This document shows positions 52 to 9,544 of a DNA stretch of 64,000 nucleotides, piece by piece. Each line of letters begins with the position of its first letter. The first letter of the stretch is position 1. This DNA comes from Fomitopsis serialis (lineage: Eukaryota > Basidiomycota > Agaricomycetes > Polyporales > Fomitopsidaceae). The notes below the pieces were generated by a model, which was not told where the DNA came from, ran no database searches, and worked only from the letters and a program-made list of their open reading frames with translations. The stretch is from NCBI RefSeq assembly GCF_022376445.1, contig NW_025954962.1:124001-188000 (forward strand), given 5' to 3'. A program made the translations under genes and the position numbers.

Positions 52-968
52 ATGATCCATGAATCACCCCTCGCGAAGTACTTCCACCGAAGTGACCACA
101 ACTTTAAGACAGACCACTCTCACAAGGAGGCGTGGTGCAAGGCTTGCGTGGCGTACAAAGTCCGCGAGATAAAGCATACCGAGCTTACTACAGGCCAGCC
201 AGAACGGGGCGACGAGGACGTCGAGAAAGAAGGTATGGCAATTAGACAGTCGGATTTGAACATACCTATAGCTAACACGTCATCACTAGTCATGACCATC
301 CATATCGAACCGAGGAGTAACAAGGTCGAGTGGTACCGGAAGCATCTTATCGAGCAATGTCCTCATGTGACCGACGAGGTGCGCGCGGAGGCAGTGGCAG
401 ATGCGGCGAGAGGGAAACGAAAGGCTGCGGAGACGAAGATGACGAGGCTTCAGCACGAGCTTAGCCAAAACGAGAACAGACCTGTTGCGTCCGGCCCAGT
501 GGCAAGCCCTTTGTCCGCCCAGTCAAGTTTGTCGAGTATCGCGAGTGCCGACTCCGACGCGCTACTCACTAGTACCGTGACGGGCGGTCAATCGCTCCTA
601 GCACCTGCGTCCGCACCAGCTCCTGAGGTCGATTACGATAAGTGGATCATGGCGGCAGAGTCAAGTGGTGGTATGCATGCCTGTGAGGTGTTCTGTCCTA
701 GTGTACACACTCTGATATACACCCAATCTTGCAGATACCGAGCAAGCAGAGGCCCTGCGTTATGCTAAGCGCCAGCGGCTCGGGACCATCAACGGGACAC
801 CATTCTTCGGCGAGACAGTCCCGAAGTTGCAATCTTGGAACAACACGAGACAACGCGAGTTTTCAAGTGATCTGTGTTGTCTTCTGATTGCGTGCAACAT
901 TGCGTGGCACGCTGTCGAGGTCCCTTACTGGCAACACTTCTTTCAGAAGTGGGTCCCTGGTTGTCTAC
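52..968 (+). pseudogene. hAT transposase, N-terminal part (split by LTR element)
   Basis: This is the 5' part of a hAT-superfamily transposase gene. A BED-like zinc finger is suggested by WCKAC near residue 28 followed by an H-x5-C arrangement (HLIEQC) before a Ser/Ala-rich linker. An intron of 64 bp (671-734, GTATGC...TTGCAG) joins SSG to DTEQAEALRYAKRQR, and a second in-frame intron may lie at 233-289. The exon then gives a DUF659-like stretch (AWHAVEVPYWQHFF, WVPG) that stops exactly at the LTR insertion point after 968. The frame resumes at 7367 and no other lesion is visible, so the gene was probably intact until the insertion. The element's 5' end lies at or before the window edge, so the true start and terminal repeat are unknown. 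Confidence 0.8.
964..968. repeat. Target-site duplication, left copy (TCTAC)
   Basis: The five bases TCTAC directly precede the left LTR and recur at 7362-7366 directly after the right LTR. A 5-bp duplication is the usual footprint of LTR-retrotransposon integrase. Confidence 0.9.
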
Positions 969-1169
969 TGTTATGGCGCCTCACTCGTCGTGCCTCGTAT
1001 GCGCTGCACCCAGTCTCTATTCAAGGAGATCTGTCTACAGAGTGCATACAAAGCGGTGACGAGGTAAAGGCTGAGGACTTGTAGGTGCACTGGCGCGCCA
1101 TACGAGTCCTCGAGCAAACAAAGACAAACATTTAATGTAAGACATACCGTAACGGGAATATCCGTTACA
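969..1169 (-). repeat. LTR (downstream copy in element sense)
   Basis: This 201-bp direct repeat matches 7162-7361 almost perfectly. It begins TGTTATGGCGCC where the other copy has TGTAATGCGCC, and ends CCGTTACA. The final 20 bases contain a hairpin with arms GTAACGG and CCGTTAC. Confidence 0.95.
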
Positions 1170-1181
1170 CCCTCCCCCACT
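1170..1181 (-). other. Polypurine tract
   Basis: Read on the minus strand this is AGTGGGGGAGGG, immediately before the 3' LTR. It is the expected plus-strand primer of an LTR element and fixes the element's orientation. Confidence 0.75.
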
Positions 1182-1399
1182 GGACACGACCACGGGTCCC
1201 AGCAATAACCAGAGAAACAGATAGAAAAAGGAAAATGAAAGGAGACATATGCAACAACCCAACGGTGGTAGCAATTGGCAAACAAAGATGATGTTGAACT
1301 GTAGACAACGACATGTTAGATCGCGTCAGTGAGCAGACACAACCATTCATCATTGTCGTACATAACTCGACAAGGTTATGCAGGCCATAAGGTAAACTA

Positions 1400-4300
1400 C
1401 TACTCGGACTCGGAGTAGTAGTCAGCATCTTCAGAGTTACCCTCATCTTCGGCAGATAGTGCAGAAGAGCTGAGGGTATCCTCCATCTCATACTGCTCAT
1501 AGTAGTCAGAGACTACTACTGAGTTGGTCTCCTCAGACCCAGATCTTCGTGATTCCCACGAGCTAAGATGCTCGGACTCGGAGGAATACTCTGACTCAAC
1601 ATGGTCAGGGTACTCCTCACGAGTCATGGTACGAGGCTCCTCATCAGAGGAGTTGTACCAGTCGGACTCATCCACTGGTTGTTGACGAGGTGGTACAACA
1701 AGCCATCCCAGCTTGTTGTAGGCCCAATGTCGCACCATCTCCATAGGAAGTGGTGCAACAAGCCGAGGATCGAACTCGAGTGGAACCACTTCCAACTCCC
1801 TCTGGAAGTGGTCCCAGGCTCGACGAGCTGCACGAGAATATGTCCCCGGTCGCGGGGACATCTCCTCGATGGCATGCCCACAGCTAAGTGCTGACCTCTT
1901 GCAGTGAGCCCAGATGTCCCACTCGCCAACACTCGCCGCAACATCGGCCTCGTCGAAGTCGTGGTCAAGTTGGTCTGCAAGGAGGCTGAAGCATTCCTCG
2001 CGCGACCTCTTGTCACTCGGCCATCGACTCACATCAACGGTTACTGAACGATCCAGTGCGGTCGACACTCGGTTCAGTCCCAGTACTTCGCGGCGCGAGG
2101 TACTGGCTTCCCGAGTGATGTCGTGGCTGCGACGGTCACCCGTATCCTGCATTTCGAGTTGATCACTCGATGCGCGTGGTACAGGTGGTACACGTCTCGA
2201 TGTCCGACGTGAAGCTCGTACGTCGATCACTTCGCTGGACGTATGGCCCGAGACTACATCTGGTCCCAATACACCATTGTATGATGTACTGGCCACTCGC
2301 GCCGTATCCTGCACTTCGCGCCGACTACTCGATGTGCGAGTAGCTGGTATTCGCGTCGAGTTCCCGTGGGTGGCCCGTACGTCAAGCTCACGGCTTGGCG
2401 TCCGTGTCGCTGCCGGGTCCGAGGCCAGTACATCTTCGTGTGATGTACTGGTTGTGTTGTGGAACGAGCGGCGGCCGTTCGAGGCCCCGCTCCCTTCCCC
2501 TCTCAAGAGAGTACCCCCTCTCGTAGAGGAGATATCTCCTCCTTGCGCTCGCGCCGGCTCGGTCTCGATACCATCAGTAGTCGTTGAACATCGCCGTTCA
2601 CCTGAGTCCGATGAATCCAGCCCTCGCGGTGGATGTTCCTTCTTATGGGCGCGCGACGACGCCCTGGTCGTCGCGTCATTCGATGCGGGTGCATCACCCG
2701 GTAACCTGGATGTGCCTGCCACACCATATGGTCCAGGTAATTGTACCCGCGACGACGATGATTCGTCCTCGCCAAGGTTCCCTTGCCCTGGGACTACCGA
2801 GACCTCGTCAGTCCCCGTCCCTTCGTTTGACTGCGCTGGGTCCGGGAATAAGGCAGCACATCCATCTTGGATGTGCTCGGCGGTAGCTCCCGGTCTCGTT
2901 TGCTGGACGCACCAAGTACTTTGCAGTACTTGGGCTGGTGCTCGCCGTCGAAGACCACGGCCAGCTCACGTCGGTCTTGCTGAACGCGACGTGCCGGCAG
3001 CACGTAGCGTCCCGACGGTCGCCATTCAGACTCGTGTGCAGTCTGTCGTACGTCTACACTCGTAGACGTACCGGCTGACTGGCCGCGATTCGCCAGATTG
3101 AGCTTGTCCGTATCGTCATCGAGGTCTGTTGCAGTGTGACGCGGCGGTGACGCTGCAACAATAGGAGATGAGCTGGCGAGTACCGTGAGGTACTCGCCGT
3201 GGGCGGTAGCAAGGTCGCACCCTTGTGTGGCACCCTCAAGCTCGGTGCTTGACGTCGGTGCTACGCCCGCCGCGGAGAGATGGGACGCGCCAGTAGTGCC
3301 TGTGTGCACTCCGGACGCGTCGCTGTGCTTGATGGTAGACACGACGGTGTCCTCCTGTACGAGTAACGTACCACCGTCGGTCGCGACTACTGAGTGGGTA
3401 GTCGCGACGTACCCTGGTAGTGGTACAGAAATGGGGGGTGGTGACGGCGATGCGAGTACCGTGAGGTACTCGCTGTTCGATTCGCCACCGAACTCTTCGA
3501 CGGAGGCGTCGAGCGAGAGTCCCGACGTCTGTGTGTGGACGCGTTGCGTGACCGTGCCGGTTGCGACCTGTAGATCGCCCCGTGGGTCGATCGTACCGTC
3601 GACCTGCGTGGTTGCTGTCACGACAACCGCATTGGTTGTCGTAGTCGTCACGATTGGTGGTGGCGGTGTAGGAGATGGTGGTAGAGGCGGGGGAGGTACA
3701 TCCGGCATGGACGTACCTCTGTCTTTCGAGCTCGCAGGTTCGTCTCCTTCGCCTACACCGCACCCTTCCTCCCCTCCTCCTTCTGCCAGACCCTCCTCAT
3801 CTGACTCCTCTGTCTCTGCACTCTCATCCACGTCCCCTCGTCCCCGGCCTGATCCGCCATCCGTCCTGCACTCGATCTCCGGAGTGCGCGCGCGACCTCC
3901 GACTCGTGGTGCCTCTCGTAGTCGCCACCGATGTCGGGAGCCGCGAAGGAGTCGATGGGGAGTTGGGTAGGGGTCCCTAGGAGCGAGCCCTCGACGAGAA
4001 CTGTGAAGTTCTCGTCGGGTTGACGGTCGGGGTGCCGTTCTGGTCTGTCGGGGTCCGTAAGCGCCGGCCGCCGCACTGTTGGTAGTGCAGCAGTCGGGTC
4101 GCGATCTCGAGCTCGCGCGTCGCTCGAGACTACACGACTGTCGAGCTGCGCGATCGTGGGGCCGTCCGTGTCGCGGGGATAGTGGTGGTCGCTGAAAAAA
4201 CCAAGACCGAGGTCCACCGTTTCGTCGAGTCGGTCGAGGTCGTATCGCGGGCCTGTCAGTTGAACCGCGAGATGTTCAGCTGTCTTGGGACTACCGGGGG

Positions 4301-7016
4301 CTTGCACTTCCGGTTGGGAGTGCACGTCTTCTCGGAAGTCGGCCGCGCGCGATCGGGGGCTGCTGGAGGTGTCGTCGAGGTCGTCCCACGACCTGGCCAG
4401 CTGAACCTCAGGAGGTTCAGCTATATCGGAGCAGCTGGGGGCCTGCACTTCCGTGAGGATGTGCAGGCCGTGTGGTGTCGCGGTTGGTCGAGCGATGTAG
4501 CTGCCGGACGAGAGGTCCGGAACGTTCGGAGACACGCAGTCCTTGGCCCCGTCTACGTCAAGCTCATGGCTAGACGCACTCGCTGCGCAGCGGGCAGACG
4601 AGGGAATGGATACGTCAGACATGCAGTATTGCATGTCCGCCGTGTCGCTTTGCAGAGAGAACGGTCTGGGTACGACCATGAGGTCGTCCCGTAGCGCGGA
4701 CGCGCCGTCTTCATGGCCGACAACGCGCACGACGGACTTCACGTCCGTCGCTACGCTTGTTGGCGCGGATGCGGGGAAGGTAGGAGGTGTCGAGATGGAT
4801 ACGTCCATCAGGGGCGTACCTTCAGTTCTCGACCCTTCGTGCTGGTCGGTAGCGTGTACGTCGAGCATCAATCTCGGCGTACTCGCTATCCATCGGTCAG
4901 TGATGGGTGAATGGGGCCCGTCGGACGTGCACTGCTGCGCGTCCGCCGTGTCGCTTTGCGAGATGGGCGGTACGACCGCGAGGTCGTCCCGCAACGCAGG
5001 CGTGTGGCCTTGCAGATCGGCAGGCACGACCGGTAGGTCGTCCTGCGGCACAGATCTGCCGTCCCCTTGGCCAGCCACGCGTACGACGAACTCCTCGTTA
5101 GTCGCTACGCTTGTTGATACAGGTGCACACAAGGGGATAGGCGTCGAGGTGGATATGTCCGCCTGAGGCGTATCCGCTACTCGATATCCAGTCGCGGAAT
5201 GGTGGGGCACGTCGGACGTGCGATACTGCGCGTCCGTCGTGTCGCCTTGCTGAGTGTATGGTACGACCGCGAGGTCGTCCCAGGGCGCAATCGTGCCATC
5301 TTGCAGAGTGGAGGGTACGACTGTTAGGTCGTCCTGCAGGGCGAGCCTGCCGTCTTCCTGACCAGCAACGCATACGGCGAACTTCATGTTCGTCGCTATG
5401 CTTGCTGGTGCGGACACGGGCGAGAAGTGAGGTATCGAGGCGGGTACGTCCATCTGGGGCGTACCCGTTACTCGACATCCGGTTGCGGAACAATGGGACA
5501 CGTCGGACGTGCGGTATTGCGCGTCCGCCGTGTCGCTTTGCAATGTGAAAGGTTCAGGTACGACCTGGAGGTCGTACCGCAGCACAAACGTGCTATTTTG
5601 CGGAGAGGAAGATACGACTTCGCAGTCGTACCTGGTTCCGTGACCAGCGGTACGCTCGACGAACTCCGTGTTCGTCGATGCGTACGCTGGCGGGGGTACT
5701 GGCACAGGCGGAGGCGAGGTGGGTACGTCCAGCATGGGCGTACCTTCGATTTGCGAGCCTTCCTGCTCGCTTTCCCTGCTCGCCCCGCACCCTTCCTCCC
5801 TCTCTCCCTTCGTGCCTTCCTCGCACCCTTCTCGTTCCTTCGGGATTTCCTCGTCGCCTCCACGATCCGCGTTCCTCGTGGTCCGCTCGGTCTTGCAGCT
5901 CGGCGCTGGGCTTGAACGCGCGGTGTTCAAGTCCTGGGTCGCGCGGCTGGGTTGCGTGTCGCCAGAGCCGCGGTATTGGTTGCCAGAGTCAAGGCGCGAG
6001 TCGAGAGGGGTGAGGTGAGGAGCCGGGGAGGGAGGAATTGGCGGTCTGGTACCGTGAGGTACCAGGTCGTCGGTCGCCACTGACTGGACTGGCGGTAAGT
6101 CAGCCAGCCATTCGCGAACGCGAGTTCGCACTCGCGTTGGGGCCGCGCGCGCGTCTGGTTCGCCAGACGGGCGCTCGAGTTGGCTGCCCAGGGAGTGGAA
6201 ATGGTCGAAGACGAGGGGTCGGTGGTGGCGGTCGAGCGCAGTGCGGTGGGCGCTAACGCTCGGGGCGCTCACCACTGGCACGGTCTCGTGGCGCTCGACG
6301 CCCGCAGGGTCGAGCGTGTCGTGCGTCGCGTCGAGCAATCTGCTCGGCGTGGCGCTCACGTCGTTCGACAACAAATATATATTTTCTGTGTCACGGCTCA
6401 TCTCTGAGCGCGCGACGGGCGTGTCTACACGCGTGGGCTTGGTCCCACTGCACACAGTACTACTGTAGTACTGTGTGCCTATGCCCTCCCGGGTGCTGAT
6501 ACGAGTCAGCTCATTGCACTGCTCGTTCGACCCGGGCGCGAGCTCGACTACGGTTACGTCGTCGAGCTCGGTGCACTCACCACTCCTCCGAGTGGTGCCG
6601 ATCTTCATCGGCAGGGTGGTAGCAGGTGGAGGGTCGGTCTCCGTGCGGCTCTGAGCGGGCTCGACATTGGGCTCGAGCTGCTCAGTGTGCAGTGCCTGTT
6701 CGACCTCACGGTCGGACGGCGCCTGCTCTGTGAGGGCTCCGGCTGAGTCCTCGCGGTGAGAGGACTCAGTCCGGGTGGTCTTCGTGCGAGAAGACCGACT
6801 GCGGCTGCTGGCCTCGGACAACGCGGCGTCGACTGTTGCCAGCAGTTCGGCCTCGAGTTGCTTGGACTCCTCGAGAGCCTTGTTGATCCGCTCTTGACTT
6901 GCGGCGAGCTTCGCTCGGACTTCCGCGCGCAACGCCTTCAGCTTGCTGCGGGTTCCACTGTGGGACCCGCGGCTGCCTCGGGAAGGTGCAGACGGGGTGT
7001 TGGTCGACTCGGACAT
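1400..7016 (-). CDS. Giant hairpin-rich protein of the LTR element, no pol domains
   Basis: I do not recognise this protein. Three abutting open frames (7016-3753, 3831-2794, and about 2850-1400) read as one protein of about 1,870 residues if one base is restored in each of two short G/C runs (plus-strand 3834-3837 and 2852-2853). The start is the ATG at 7016, about 145 nt inside the 5' LTR. Residues 20-70 form a charged probable coiled coil (KALRAEVRAKLAAS, LEESKQLEAELL). The middle is Ser/Thr/Asp/Pro-rich with four imperfect repeats of about 90-120 residues carrying TPxMDVP, VATNxxFVVRVAG and DDLxVVP motifs. The C-terminus has a more ordered, Trp-containing segment (VGEWDIWAHCKR, RAWDHFQRELEVVP, VRHWAYNKLGW) and an acidic tail ending DYYSESE. 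No CCHC, DTG or YxDD motif is seen. By position it could be a highly diverged Gag, but that is inference. The coding DNA is studded with perfect inverted repeats (see findings). Confidence 0.7.
4590..5745 (-). repeat. Four tandem coding repeats within the element protein
   Basis: Four diverged repeats of roughly 275-350 bp encode units that begin with TPMLDVP, TPQMDVP, TPQADIS and TPLMDVS. They continue through VATN-like, VAGxxDGR and one or two DDLxVVP motifs to DTADAQYRTSDV. The TPxMDVP and DDLxVVP segments coincide with inverted repeats in the DNA. Confidence 0.75.
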
Positions 7017-7161
7017 CTTGTCGAGTTGTCGAGTTGGCCAGAGGATGATCAGAGTAGCATAGAGTTGTTGACGTCGAGTAGGTAGATATCGAAGTCGAGT
7101 TTTTGAGGTTGTTGCCTAGAATAGATCCCCAGAGTAGAAGCTTGTCTGGAGCGCAAAAAAG

Positions 7162-7361
7162 TGTAATGCGCCTCACTCGTCGTGCCTCGTATGCGCTGCA
7201 CCCAGTCTCTATTCAAGGAGATCTGTCTACAGAGTGCATACAAAGCGGTGACGAGGTAAAGGCTGAGGACTTGTAGGTGCACTGGCGCGCCATACGAGTC
7301 CTCGAGCAAACAAAGACAAACATTTAATGTAAGACATACCGTAACGGGAATATCCGTTACA
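7162..7361 (-). repeat. LTR (upstream copy in element sense)
   Basis: This 200-bp copy is near-identical to 969-1169. On the minus strand it begins TGTAACGGATATTCCCGTTAC and ends GCGCATTACA. The promoter of the element should lie here, but no clear TATA box was identified. Confidence 0.95.
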
Positions 7362-7366
7362 TCTAC
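7362..7366. repeat. Target-site duplication, right copy (TCTAC)
   Basis: This is the second copy of TCTAC, directly after the terminal CA of the right LTR. With it the hAT reading frame continues past the element. Confidence 0.9.
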
Positions 7367-9544
7367 TCCCTGGCCGGCTCACGTTGTCGGGTCGAGTTCT
7401 GGATGAAGAGGCAGACAAAGTGCTCACCACAATGAAGACTCGTGTCAAGGGCCGATTTGCCACAGGTCAATGTGATGCATGGAAGAACATCACCAAGACG
7501 TCCATAGTTGCATCAATGTTGAACGTCGAATACAAGGCACGTACCTAATATAGTAGCATCTAGTCCCGTTCTTTGCTGACCTGTGTTGTAGCCATACATT
7601 CTCAGTGCAGTTGATATATCTGCGAAGGCCAAGAACGCTGAGAATTTGCTCGAGATCGTCGTCAACGAGATCAAATACTGCCGTGACGTACTCGAGACAG
7701 TGGTGGTCGCATGGTGCACGGATTCGAGTGGCGAGTCTTTGAAGATGCGTCGCCTTCTTCGTGAGCGATTTCCTTGGATTGTGACAGTGGCGTGCTGGGC
7801 GCATCAGGTAACTTGTTTCGGTGTATGGATATTGAAATCCATGGCTGATACACTGCTGTCAGCTCAATCTCGTCGTGTCCGATTACCTCAAATTGAAGCT
7901 CCCGCATATCCGTGTTGTTGATCAAGCTTTGGAAGTGATCAAGTGGTTCAACAATCACAGTCGGGCTCTGGGGCTCCTGAAGGAGAAGATGATGGAGAAG
8001 CTAGCGAAGGTTTATGCGTTGATTTTACCAGTCATTACCCGCTGGACATCGCACTTCCTTTCATGCCGGCGACTGCTCCGCATCGAGAATGCCATGCGGA
8101 CCCTTGTGTTGGACTCGCGCGATCAACTGATCGTGTGCGCGGGCGATAAGGTCGAACTGAAAGCGAAGGCGACTGAGATCCTTGATCTCATCAGCGAGCC
8201 GTCTTTCTGGCGTAACCTTGCAGAGTACGTCAGCTAATTAACCCCTAAAAGTCCACATGGATGTCAACTTGAACTTACATTCACGTCCATTTCCCAGGAT
8301 CGAAAAGTCACTTCGCCCTCTCGCCATCGCGACTTATGCAACTGAAGCGAATAATGCCCGCTTGGACATTGTCTTGCTGACTCTTGGCCACCTCTACCAC
8401 ATATTCAGCAGCCTGGAGTACGATGCTGCTGCACGCGAGACAATCCGCAAGAGCCTGGAGAAGCGCTGGAAACAAGCCGATCAGGAAGTCTTCGTCCTTG
8501 CGGTTCTCTTTAACCCTTACCTGCGGCGAAAGGCCTTCAACCCAGACAACGCGCTTTTCACCGAGGCGTCACTCTGGGGAATGGTTGATCGATGCTTCCG
8601 CCGCATGTTTCCTTCACCAGAGTACGCACCACCCGATTACGAGATGCGCCGTGCATTTACAGATTATCTGACTGGGCTCGGGACCTTCTCCGACGAGGCG
8701 ATGAGCCTCGAGCTCCTGAAGAGGATGGCAGATGCAGAGGTAAGTACCTTAGATACTGCGTATGTTGATGTTCCTGTTGGACTTAGATTGGACACAGAAA
8801 TCCTTTGTCGATCTCGTCAGTGTCTGGCGGTCGTGCTGGACTCCTGGAAAGACAACAGGACCCGAGGGACTGGTTGTCCTTGCTATGCGGATACTCAGCA
8901 TTGTGCCCAACTCTGCCGCGACGGAGCGGCTCTTCAGCTTGATGGGTACAATACATACCGATCGACGCAATCGTCTCGATGCTGGAAGGGTTCGCAAGAT
9001 GGCCTTGGTCAAAGGTGACATTAATACACAGTGGCCTGCGAAGGAGCGCAAGAAGCGTCACACTTACGAATGTTCCACCACCGCATCCGCATCATCTGCC
9101 GCCGTCTCGTCCACAACCACATCCGAGTCAGCAGCACCGCCAGCAAACAGCGACGCGAGCTCAGGTCCAGGCCGAACCGCCGACTCCGAATGGGACACAC
9201 CCCTTATTACCTCGTTCAGCGCTGTCGCAGATGAACTCTCGCACGAAGCGGAGGAGCATGACAATGCGACTCGGAGTCTCAGCTCGCAGCCACTGGTACC
9301 CGGCAGTAGTACCGGCGACGGCGCGGCTGCCACCACTTCGAGCTCGGCACCGGTGGGTGCGGCGTTGCATGGTCGCGAGAGGCTTTTACTATGCAACCTA
9401 TTCCTGAAACCGTCGGACCCCCATTTTGTTCAACTGAGTAGCTATTGCGCTGGCTTCTGGCAGCAAGCCGAAGCGAGCCTAGATGTAGAATCCGACCTTC
9501 AGGAGGTCCTTATGTCAGAGCCCCCAGTATCTTCCGAGTTGTGA
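7367..9544 (+). pseudogene. hAT transposase, C-terminal part (split by LTR element)
   Basis: This is the catalytic and C-terminal part of the interrupted hAT transposase. The frame re-enters directly after the right LTR (PGRLTLSGRVLDEEADK). Introns inferred from GT/AG and frame are 7541-7591, 7808-7862, 8226-8297 and 8740-8797. Landmarks are TDSSGESLKMRRLLRERFP and ACWAHQ in the RNase-H-like core, then the hAT C-terminal dimerisation region GLVVLAMRILSIVPNSAATERLFS with RNRLDAGRVRKMALVK. A low-complexity Ser/Thr/Ala tail precedes the TGA at 9542-9544. The copy shows no stop codons or frameshifts besides the LTR insertion, so the disruption is probably young. It cannot make full-length transposase from this locus. 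Confidence 0.85.

Follow-up and report, generated by a model that had tools for sequence, protein, structure and literature searches.

The window analysed here, a 64-kb stretch of Fomitopsis serialis contig NW_025954962.1 (positions 124,001–188,000, forward strand), contained one copy of an LTR element at 969–7361 (Table 1). Direct LTRs with TG...CA ends enclosed the interior, and a 5-bp target duplication was detected by script in 17 of 19 copies of the family, the window copy among them. Beside the 3′ LTR the minus strand read GTGGGGGAGGG at 1180–1170, which we take to be the polypurine tract; together with the coding frame, this placed the sense strand of the element on the minus strand. 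Inspection by eye after the 5′ LTR recognised no tRNA-complementary stretch as a primer binding site. The flanks (1–968 and 7367–9544) made up a hAT-like transposase gene interrupted by the insertion, with a Pfam match to DUF659 under the cut-off and one to the hAT dimerisation domain over it.

Table 1. Features of the element copy and its insertion site (positions within the window; strand given where assigned).
Feature	Position	Strand	Remarks
Target-site duplication, left	964–968		TCTAC, 5 bp; read in sequence and by script
3′ LTR (sense of coding frame)	969–1169	-	Same as the other LTR over 194 bases compared
Polypurine tract (presumed)	1170–1180	-	GTGGGGGAGGG; abuts 3′ LTR; read in sequence
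Hairpin, 10 bp, loop 7	1396–1422		Covers stop codon
C-terminal frame segment	1400–2965	-	Stop codon 1397–1399; last ~280 residues conserved
Hairpin, 10 bp, loop 7	1694–1720		Perfect in 16/20 copies
Hairpin, 10 bp, loop 8	1785–1812		Perfect (arm at least 10) in 19/20 copies
Hairpin, 9 bp, loop 4	1840–1861		Originally predicted as 1841–1860
Hairpin, 10 bp, loop 7	2425–2451
Hairpin, 9 bp, loop 6	2652–2675		Added by scan
Middle frame segment	2794–4275	-	Different frame
Hairpin, 10 bp, loop 3	2855–2877		Three different perfect versions in family
Hairpin, 9 bp, loop 4	2912–2933
Hairpin, 10 bp, loop 4	3048–3071
Hairpin, 10 bp, loop 4	3175–3198		Loop inverted in 4 relatives
Hairpin, 11 bp, loop 7	3380–3408
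Hairpin, 9 bp, loop 4	3452–3473
Hairpin, 9 bp, loop 5	3620–3642
N-terminal frame segment	3753–7016	-	ATG at 7016–7014 (MSESTN); first ~100 residues conserved
Hairpin, 11 bp, loop 4	3992–4017		Relatives with compensatory pair change
Hairpin, 10 bp, loop 4	4399–4422
Hairpin, 9 bp, loop 12	4440–4469		Added by scan
Hairpin, 9 bp, loop 4	5557–5578
Hairpin, 9 bp, loop 5	5656–5678		Added by scan
Hairpin, 8 bp, loop 4	6046–6065
Hairpin, 9 bp, loop 4	6117–6138		Added by scan
Hairpin, 13 bp, loop 3	6450–6478		Arm 13 in 14/20 copies
Hairpin, 10 bp, loop 12	6539–6570
Hairpin, 8 bp, loop 4	6578–6597
Hairpin, 10 bp, loop 7	6743–6769
5′ LTR (sense of coding frame)	7162–7361	-
Target-site duplication, right	7362–7366		TCTAC, 5 bp

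The coding sequence of the window copy was broken into three overlapping frames. A single open frame of 1,686–1,865 codons was kept in 8 of the 20 copies studied, and translation from the ATG gave proteins of 1,657–1,835 residues in these open copies. Clear conservation was limited to about 100 N-terminal and about 280 C-terminal residues. Ratios of nonsynonymous to synonymous change (N/S), scaled to the neutral expectation and calculated over six copies, were 0.19 in the first 300 columns and 0.31–0.36 in the last 834 columns; between the ends they ran from 0.46 to 1.71, mostly 0.7–1.2, and the long middle of the protein was mostly near neutral. Neither the three window frames nor the long relative P0001 had a Pfam match to reverse transcriptase, integrase or protease domains. 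With LTRs and target duplications present and no retroelement Pfam domain in the frames, the element is a non-autonomous, pol-less LTR retrotransposon, as had been proposed from the sequence at the outset. The structure model of the C-terminal 190 residues had a mean pLDDT of 45, and two weak matches from a solved-structure profile search (E 0.17 and 0.36) were dismissed. Viral contigs gave no match, nor did Rfam models run against 900–7500 at E ≤ 0.1.

A 601-base interior query against the 66-Mb genome returned 24 strong matches, together with three that were short and weaker, and a search with the LTR gave 40 scored matches among 82 candidates. Copies were 5.75–6.68 kb long. Their interiors mostly shared 76–87% identity with the window copy (one of the 20 copies reached 99.9%), yet the two LTRs were identical over the compared bases in 16 of 19 copies examined, which indicated that several diverged lineages were active recently. 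The family is recently active. The original prediction had missed this abundance of recent insertions, as well as the minus-strand coding and the broken frames of the window copy. Two copies, L040 and L041, had common flanks and are not independent. Comparison of the window copy with L031 (G000:C440:12200–18750), which lies at a different place, gave 5 substitutions but 15 gap columns; this surplus of gaps may reflect sequencing or assembly error, and some frame breaks may not be real. L034 and L049 had a common 5′ flank and different 3′ flanks; L049 was without a target duplication and its LTRs were 97.9% identical, as if it had recombined. The most diverged copy, L053 (G000:C643), carried a long private insertion (columns 1182–3086) with six hairpins of its own.

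The original prediction had listed 20 perfect inverted repeats in the interior of the window copy, and all 20 were perfect at the positions given there. A scan for perfect arms of at least 9 bp with loops of 3–12 nt found 22 hairpins in 1396–6769, compared with 4 in the remainder of the 64 kb; the 56.6 kb following the element also held 4. Thirteen hairpins in the element had arms of at least 10 bp, the number predicted, and the chance figure of 0.06 offered for such cases was of the right order but somewhat low. Every one of the 20 copies contained between 11 and 22 hairpins with arms of at least 9 bp, whereas 77.8 kb of DNA beside the family copies held 15 (locus overlaps kept), five of them from one tandem repeat. 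L050 contained, at 3444–3842, a tandem repeat with a 9-bp hairpin in the unit and five identical copies. When one mismatch at most was allowed in a 10-bp stem with a loop of 3–8 nt (hereafter near-perfect sites), 32–42 sites were counted per copy in 13 non-redundant copies, or about 6 per kb, compared to 11 sites in the 56.6 kb that make up the remainder of the window. The description of the coding sequence as open proved true of the relatives; the three broken frames mean that it is not true of the window copy, whose hairpin at 1396–1422 covers the stop codon. Strict confinement of the array to the frame was rejected, since each copy had 1–2 hairpins with arms of at least 8 bp outside it, some of them over the stop codon.

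Codon- and dinucleotide-preserving shuffles, which had been put forward as a check, failed to reproduce this density. The long single frames of eight relatives contained 8–13 hairpins with arms of at least 10 bp per frame, while synonymous-codon shuffles (20 per copy) gave means of 0.15–0.5 with a maximum of 2, and dinucleotide shuffles (20 per copy) gave means of 0–0.25. Mean folding energy per 150 nt lay 9.7–18.6 standard deviations below that of codon shuffles on both strands (three copies, 20 shuffles each). The array could in principle be a by-product of the encoded protein, of codon usage, of tandem repeats or simply of chance, and some hairpins do recur within one copy (those at 3175, 3452 and 6046 have a common core) while several encode similar peptides. 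Codon shuffling, however, abolished the excess in 8 of 8 long-frame copies, the hairpins occupy 57 aligned places across the 20 copies with many different arms, and the protein middle is mostly near neutral. We therefore rejected chance, protein sequence and codon usage as main cause on the strength of the codon shuffles, and consider an origin of the array as a by-product highly improbable. The claim that the array is not one amplified palindrome was borne out by the same 57 places, although a few hairpins do have a common core.

The hairpins followed rules of shape. Arm lengths formed two classes, arms of 4 bp being near background and arms of at least 8 bp far above it. Among 89 distinct cores with arms of at least 9 bp, 53 had loops of 3–8 nt, with a peak at 4 nt (19 cores), and 16 had loops of 26–35 nt. 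Of the 57 sites, 34 had C and 5 had G as loop-closing base; the closing C:G ratio was 6.5–8.4 for arms of at least 8 bp vs. 1.1–2.2 for arms of 4–7 bp. Loop sequences were not conserved, and no common motif was seen by eye in the 4-nt loops.

Covariation was examined in 13 of the 20 copies, the others being dropped as at least 97% identical. Two-sided changes in hairpin pairs numbered 598 vs. 114 expected under independent change, and 452 of the 598 were still Watson-Crick, although the copies are related and such counts are not independent. Six slid controls gave 191–329 two-sided changes, of which 54–98 were Watson-Crick. More than one Watson-Crick state was found in 53 of 586 pairs, and switches between such states ran mostly via transitions (45 vs. 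10). Compensatory changes between homologous copies thus upheld the view that shape is kept while sequence varies. In a codon alignment of eight copies, stems differed at 12.6% of sites vs. 20.0% outside stems. Among 40 distinct double changes in that alignment, 20 were protein-altering at both positions, 12 at one and 8 at neither; given the near-neutral middle, selection on the protein is not the explanation. Taken together, these results suggest that it is the shape of the hairpins that is important to the element.

Perfect hairpins could also be gathered by mutation. If, in reverse transcription or replication, a polymerase jumped between the arms of an imperfect palindrome, it would match the arms and sometimes flip the loop, so that a near-neutral coding region would accumulate perfect hairpins. 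Such matching of arms and flipping of loops by template switching has been described for yeast genes and RNA hairpins in the excerpted accounts of PMC8604942 and PMC8794818. The element resembles these quasipalindrome mutations, to the extent that the excerpts describe them, in its perfect short inverted repeats in coding DNA and in occasional loop inversion: a script detected one exact loop inversion between relatives (column 7808), and a second was seen by eye (column 5614). Further in keeping with template switching, the middle of the protein, where hairpins lie, evolves mostly close to neutrally, and a Gypsy lineage (see below) has the excess too; a reverse transcriptase specific to the lineage could account for this. 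The events in the excerpted accounts, however, are rare and single, whereas the element carries about 6 near-perfect sites per kb with no one-arm excess. Copying of arms predicts multiple changes on one arm only, and these were rarer than an even split would give. With two changes, both were on one arm in 102 of 264 cases (an even split gives 50%); the corresponding figures were 37 of 178 for three changes (25%), 11 of 121 for four (12.5%) and 0 of 65 for five (6.25%). Copying would also be blind to the type of change, yet transversion-type events made up 10 of 55 pair-state changes compared to 111 of 330 one-step mismatches (p 0.015). Nor does it obviously predict the C-G loop closure. Besides the middle, the last 840 nt, which encode the conserved C-terminal end, held 3–6 hairpins with arms of at least 8 bp per copy (the first 300 nt held 0–1). 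In three other retroelements the longest frames contained 0, 3 and 1 near-perfect sites, compared with shuffle means of 0.65–0.90. The absence of a one-arm excess and the avoidance of transversions favour stepwise change under selection, possibly with some template switching. As sole cause template switching was not supported by the one-arm-change test, and the suggestion that inverted copying is the main cause fared no better, one-arm multiple changes not being in excess; we regard this mutational account as unlikely.

Mismatched pairs bear on the question of which strand is structured. Single-copy changes on the sense strand left A-C 48 times and G-U 24 times (background 255 vs. 266), and stems with one mismatch showed 40 A-C vs. 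16 G-U. Counted over all variants the numbers were 130 vs. 89 (background 1024 vs. 1112; p 0.0014 against background), and by site 30 vs. 16 (p 0.054). Structure in the sense RNA would predict an enrichment of G-U there. Wobbles therefore gave no support for such structure, A-C outnumbering G-U on the sense strand. Since A-C mismatches, which are G-T or G-U on the other strand, were tolerated better than sense G-U, structure may reside in minus-strand cDNA or antisense RNA; the asymmetry leans to the minus strand moderately. One reading of this is that the hairpins are active solely in minus-strand cDNA or an antisense transcript, for instance against silencing, nucleases or deamination, and not in packaging. 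Wobble-leaving variants were indeed commoner on the antisense strand in all three counts (48:24, 40:16 and 130:89) against an even background. This asymmetry, however, is moderate and comes from related copies, with p 0.054 at the level of sites, and we judge an exclusively antisense or cDNA role unlikely.

The original prediction had also asked whether other host genes reach equal hairpin density. Other DNA of the genome did not, with the exception of one Gypsy lineage. Three weak matches to the element lay about 2 kb from reverse transcriptase matches, and the one that was read, L058, contained element-like DNA that stops at sense 4213 and Gypsy pol that starts at 4214. This junction occurred in three copies with common flanks; it was read as segmental duplication, and a transposing chimera was rejected on the same grounds. 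The decayed pol-like part of L058 (1853–4788) had 5 perfect hairpins in 2.9 kb, where 40 dinucleotide shuffles gave 0 or 1, and its pol had 9 near-perfect sites in 2.94 kb. A relative, L059, which encodes protease, reverse transcriptase and RNase H, had 7 near-perfect sites in 3.5 kb (codon-shuffle mean 0.85, maximum 4 of 100), and the adjoining L060 had 2 further sites in 1.6 kb. L055, L056 and L057 had 1, 3 and 1 near-perfect sites in 5.5–6.5 kb, and the longest frame of L056 had 3 sites vs. a shuffle mean of 0.72 and a maximum of 4. A lack of hairpin excess in other retroelements thus held for near-perfect sites in L055, L056 and L057, and was false for the L058/L059 lineage. Hairpin pairs of L058 compared with five family copies were mostly unchanged or changed on one side, with 1–4 two-sided Watson-Crick pairs per comparison, from which little can be concluded. 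Because junction and hairpin excess coincide in it, this Gypsy lineage is indicated as partner of the element, although the evidence is thin, consisting of one old junction and one intact Gypsy copy.

In the explanation that we favour, selection would keep the ability to form hairpins in a single-stranded form of the element and would be blind to the sequence of the arms. The array, 32–42 perfect or near-perfect stem-loops of 8–13 bp, usually with loops of 3–8 nt, within the DNA of a protein frame, would act as many redundant sites read by shape, or as points of compaction. The nucleic acid of the element could be packaged or copied in trans by the machinery of another element, for which the Ty3/Gypsy lineage with the weaker hairpin excess in its own pol is the candidate helper, and it may be minus-strand cDNA or antisense RNA, rather than sense RNA, that is structured. 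The hairpins would probably serve in packaging or copying. Packaging had been suggested at the outset as a possible role, next to dimerisation, an interaction with dsRNA and control of translation. For the model as a whole, comprising selection on single-strand hairpins, packaging or copying in trans and a candidate Gypsy helper, we estimate a probability of about 0.5.

Several known systems share parts of this picture. Large non-autonomous LTR derivatives (LARDs) have a long interior without coding capacity, and TRIMs are very short LTR elements. The hairpin element is similar to LARDs in its near-identical LTRs, 5-bp duplications, polypurine tract, lack of pol, interior of several kb and many recent insertions; it differs in that its interior is coding (8 of 20 copies, 1,686–1,865 codons), with both protein ends conserved and a dense hairpin array. 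Its copies of 5.75–6.68 kb set it apart from TRIMs. Unlike Ty3/Gypsy elements, it is without gag-pol or a Ty3-type reverse transcriptase, the L058 junction being the only link. The L058/L059/L060 lineage is close to it in that an old copy of the element lies directly against its pol, where hairpins are in weaker excess; this lineage has its own gag-like, protease, reverse transcriptase and RNase H regions and, in the part that was read, no protein or DNA similarity to the hairpin element. Many redundant stem-loops across coding sequence also characterise the dispersed packaging signals of RNA viruses, which the available part of PMC6281560 describes for virus RNA and coat protein. The stems of the hairpin element differ in being nearly perfect, and no conserved loop motif of the kind that a coat or Gag protein would bind was seen in them by eye. 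A limited literature search found no description of the element, which is not to say that none has been published.

Should selection be the cause, a long coding region would retain dozens of short hairpins without common sequence through compensatory, even protein-altering, change. The element would then constitute a testable system for how a helper chooses non-autonomous LTR elements in packaging or copying, and a clean test case for distinguishing structure selection from mutation by template switching, a matter still debated for the evolution of RNA hairpins. More tentatively, with a Gypsy helper the genome of this pol-less element might be an array of sequence-free hairpins selected for their shape in a single strand, perhaps minus-strand cDNA, and the near-neutral stretch of the frame might be kept open mainly to carry that array. 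Doubtful as this last step is, it would, if true, make the element a coding sequence with structure as its main message.
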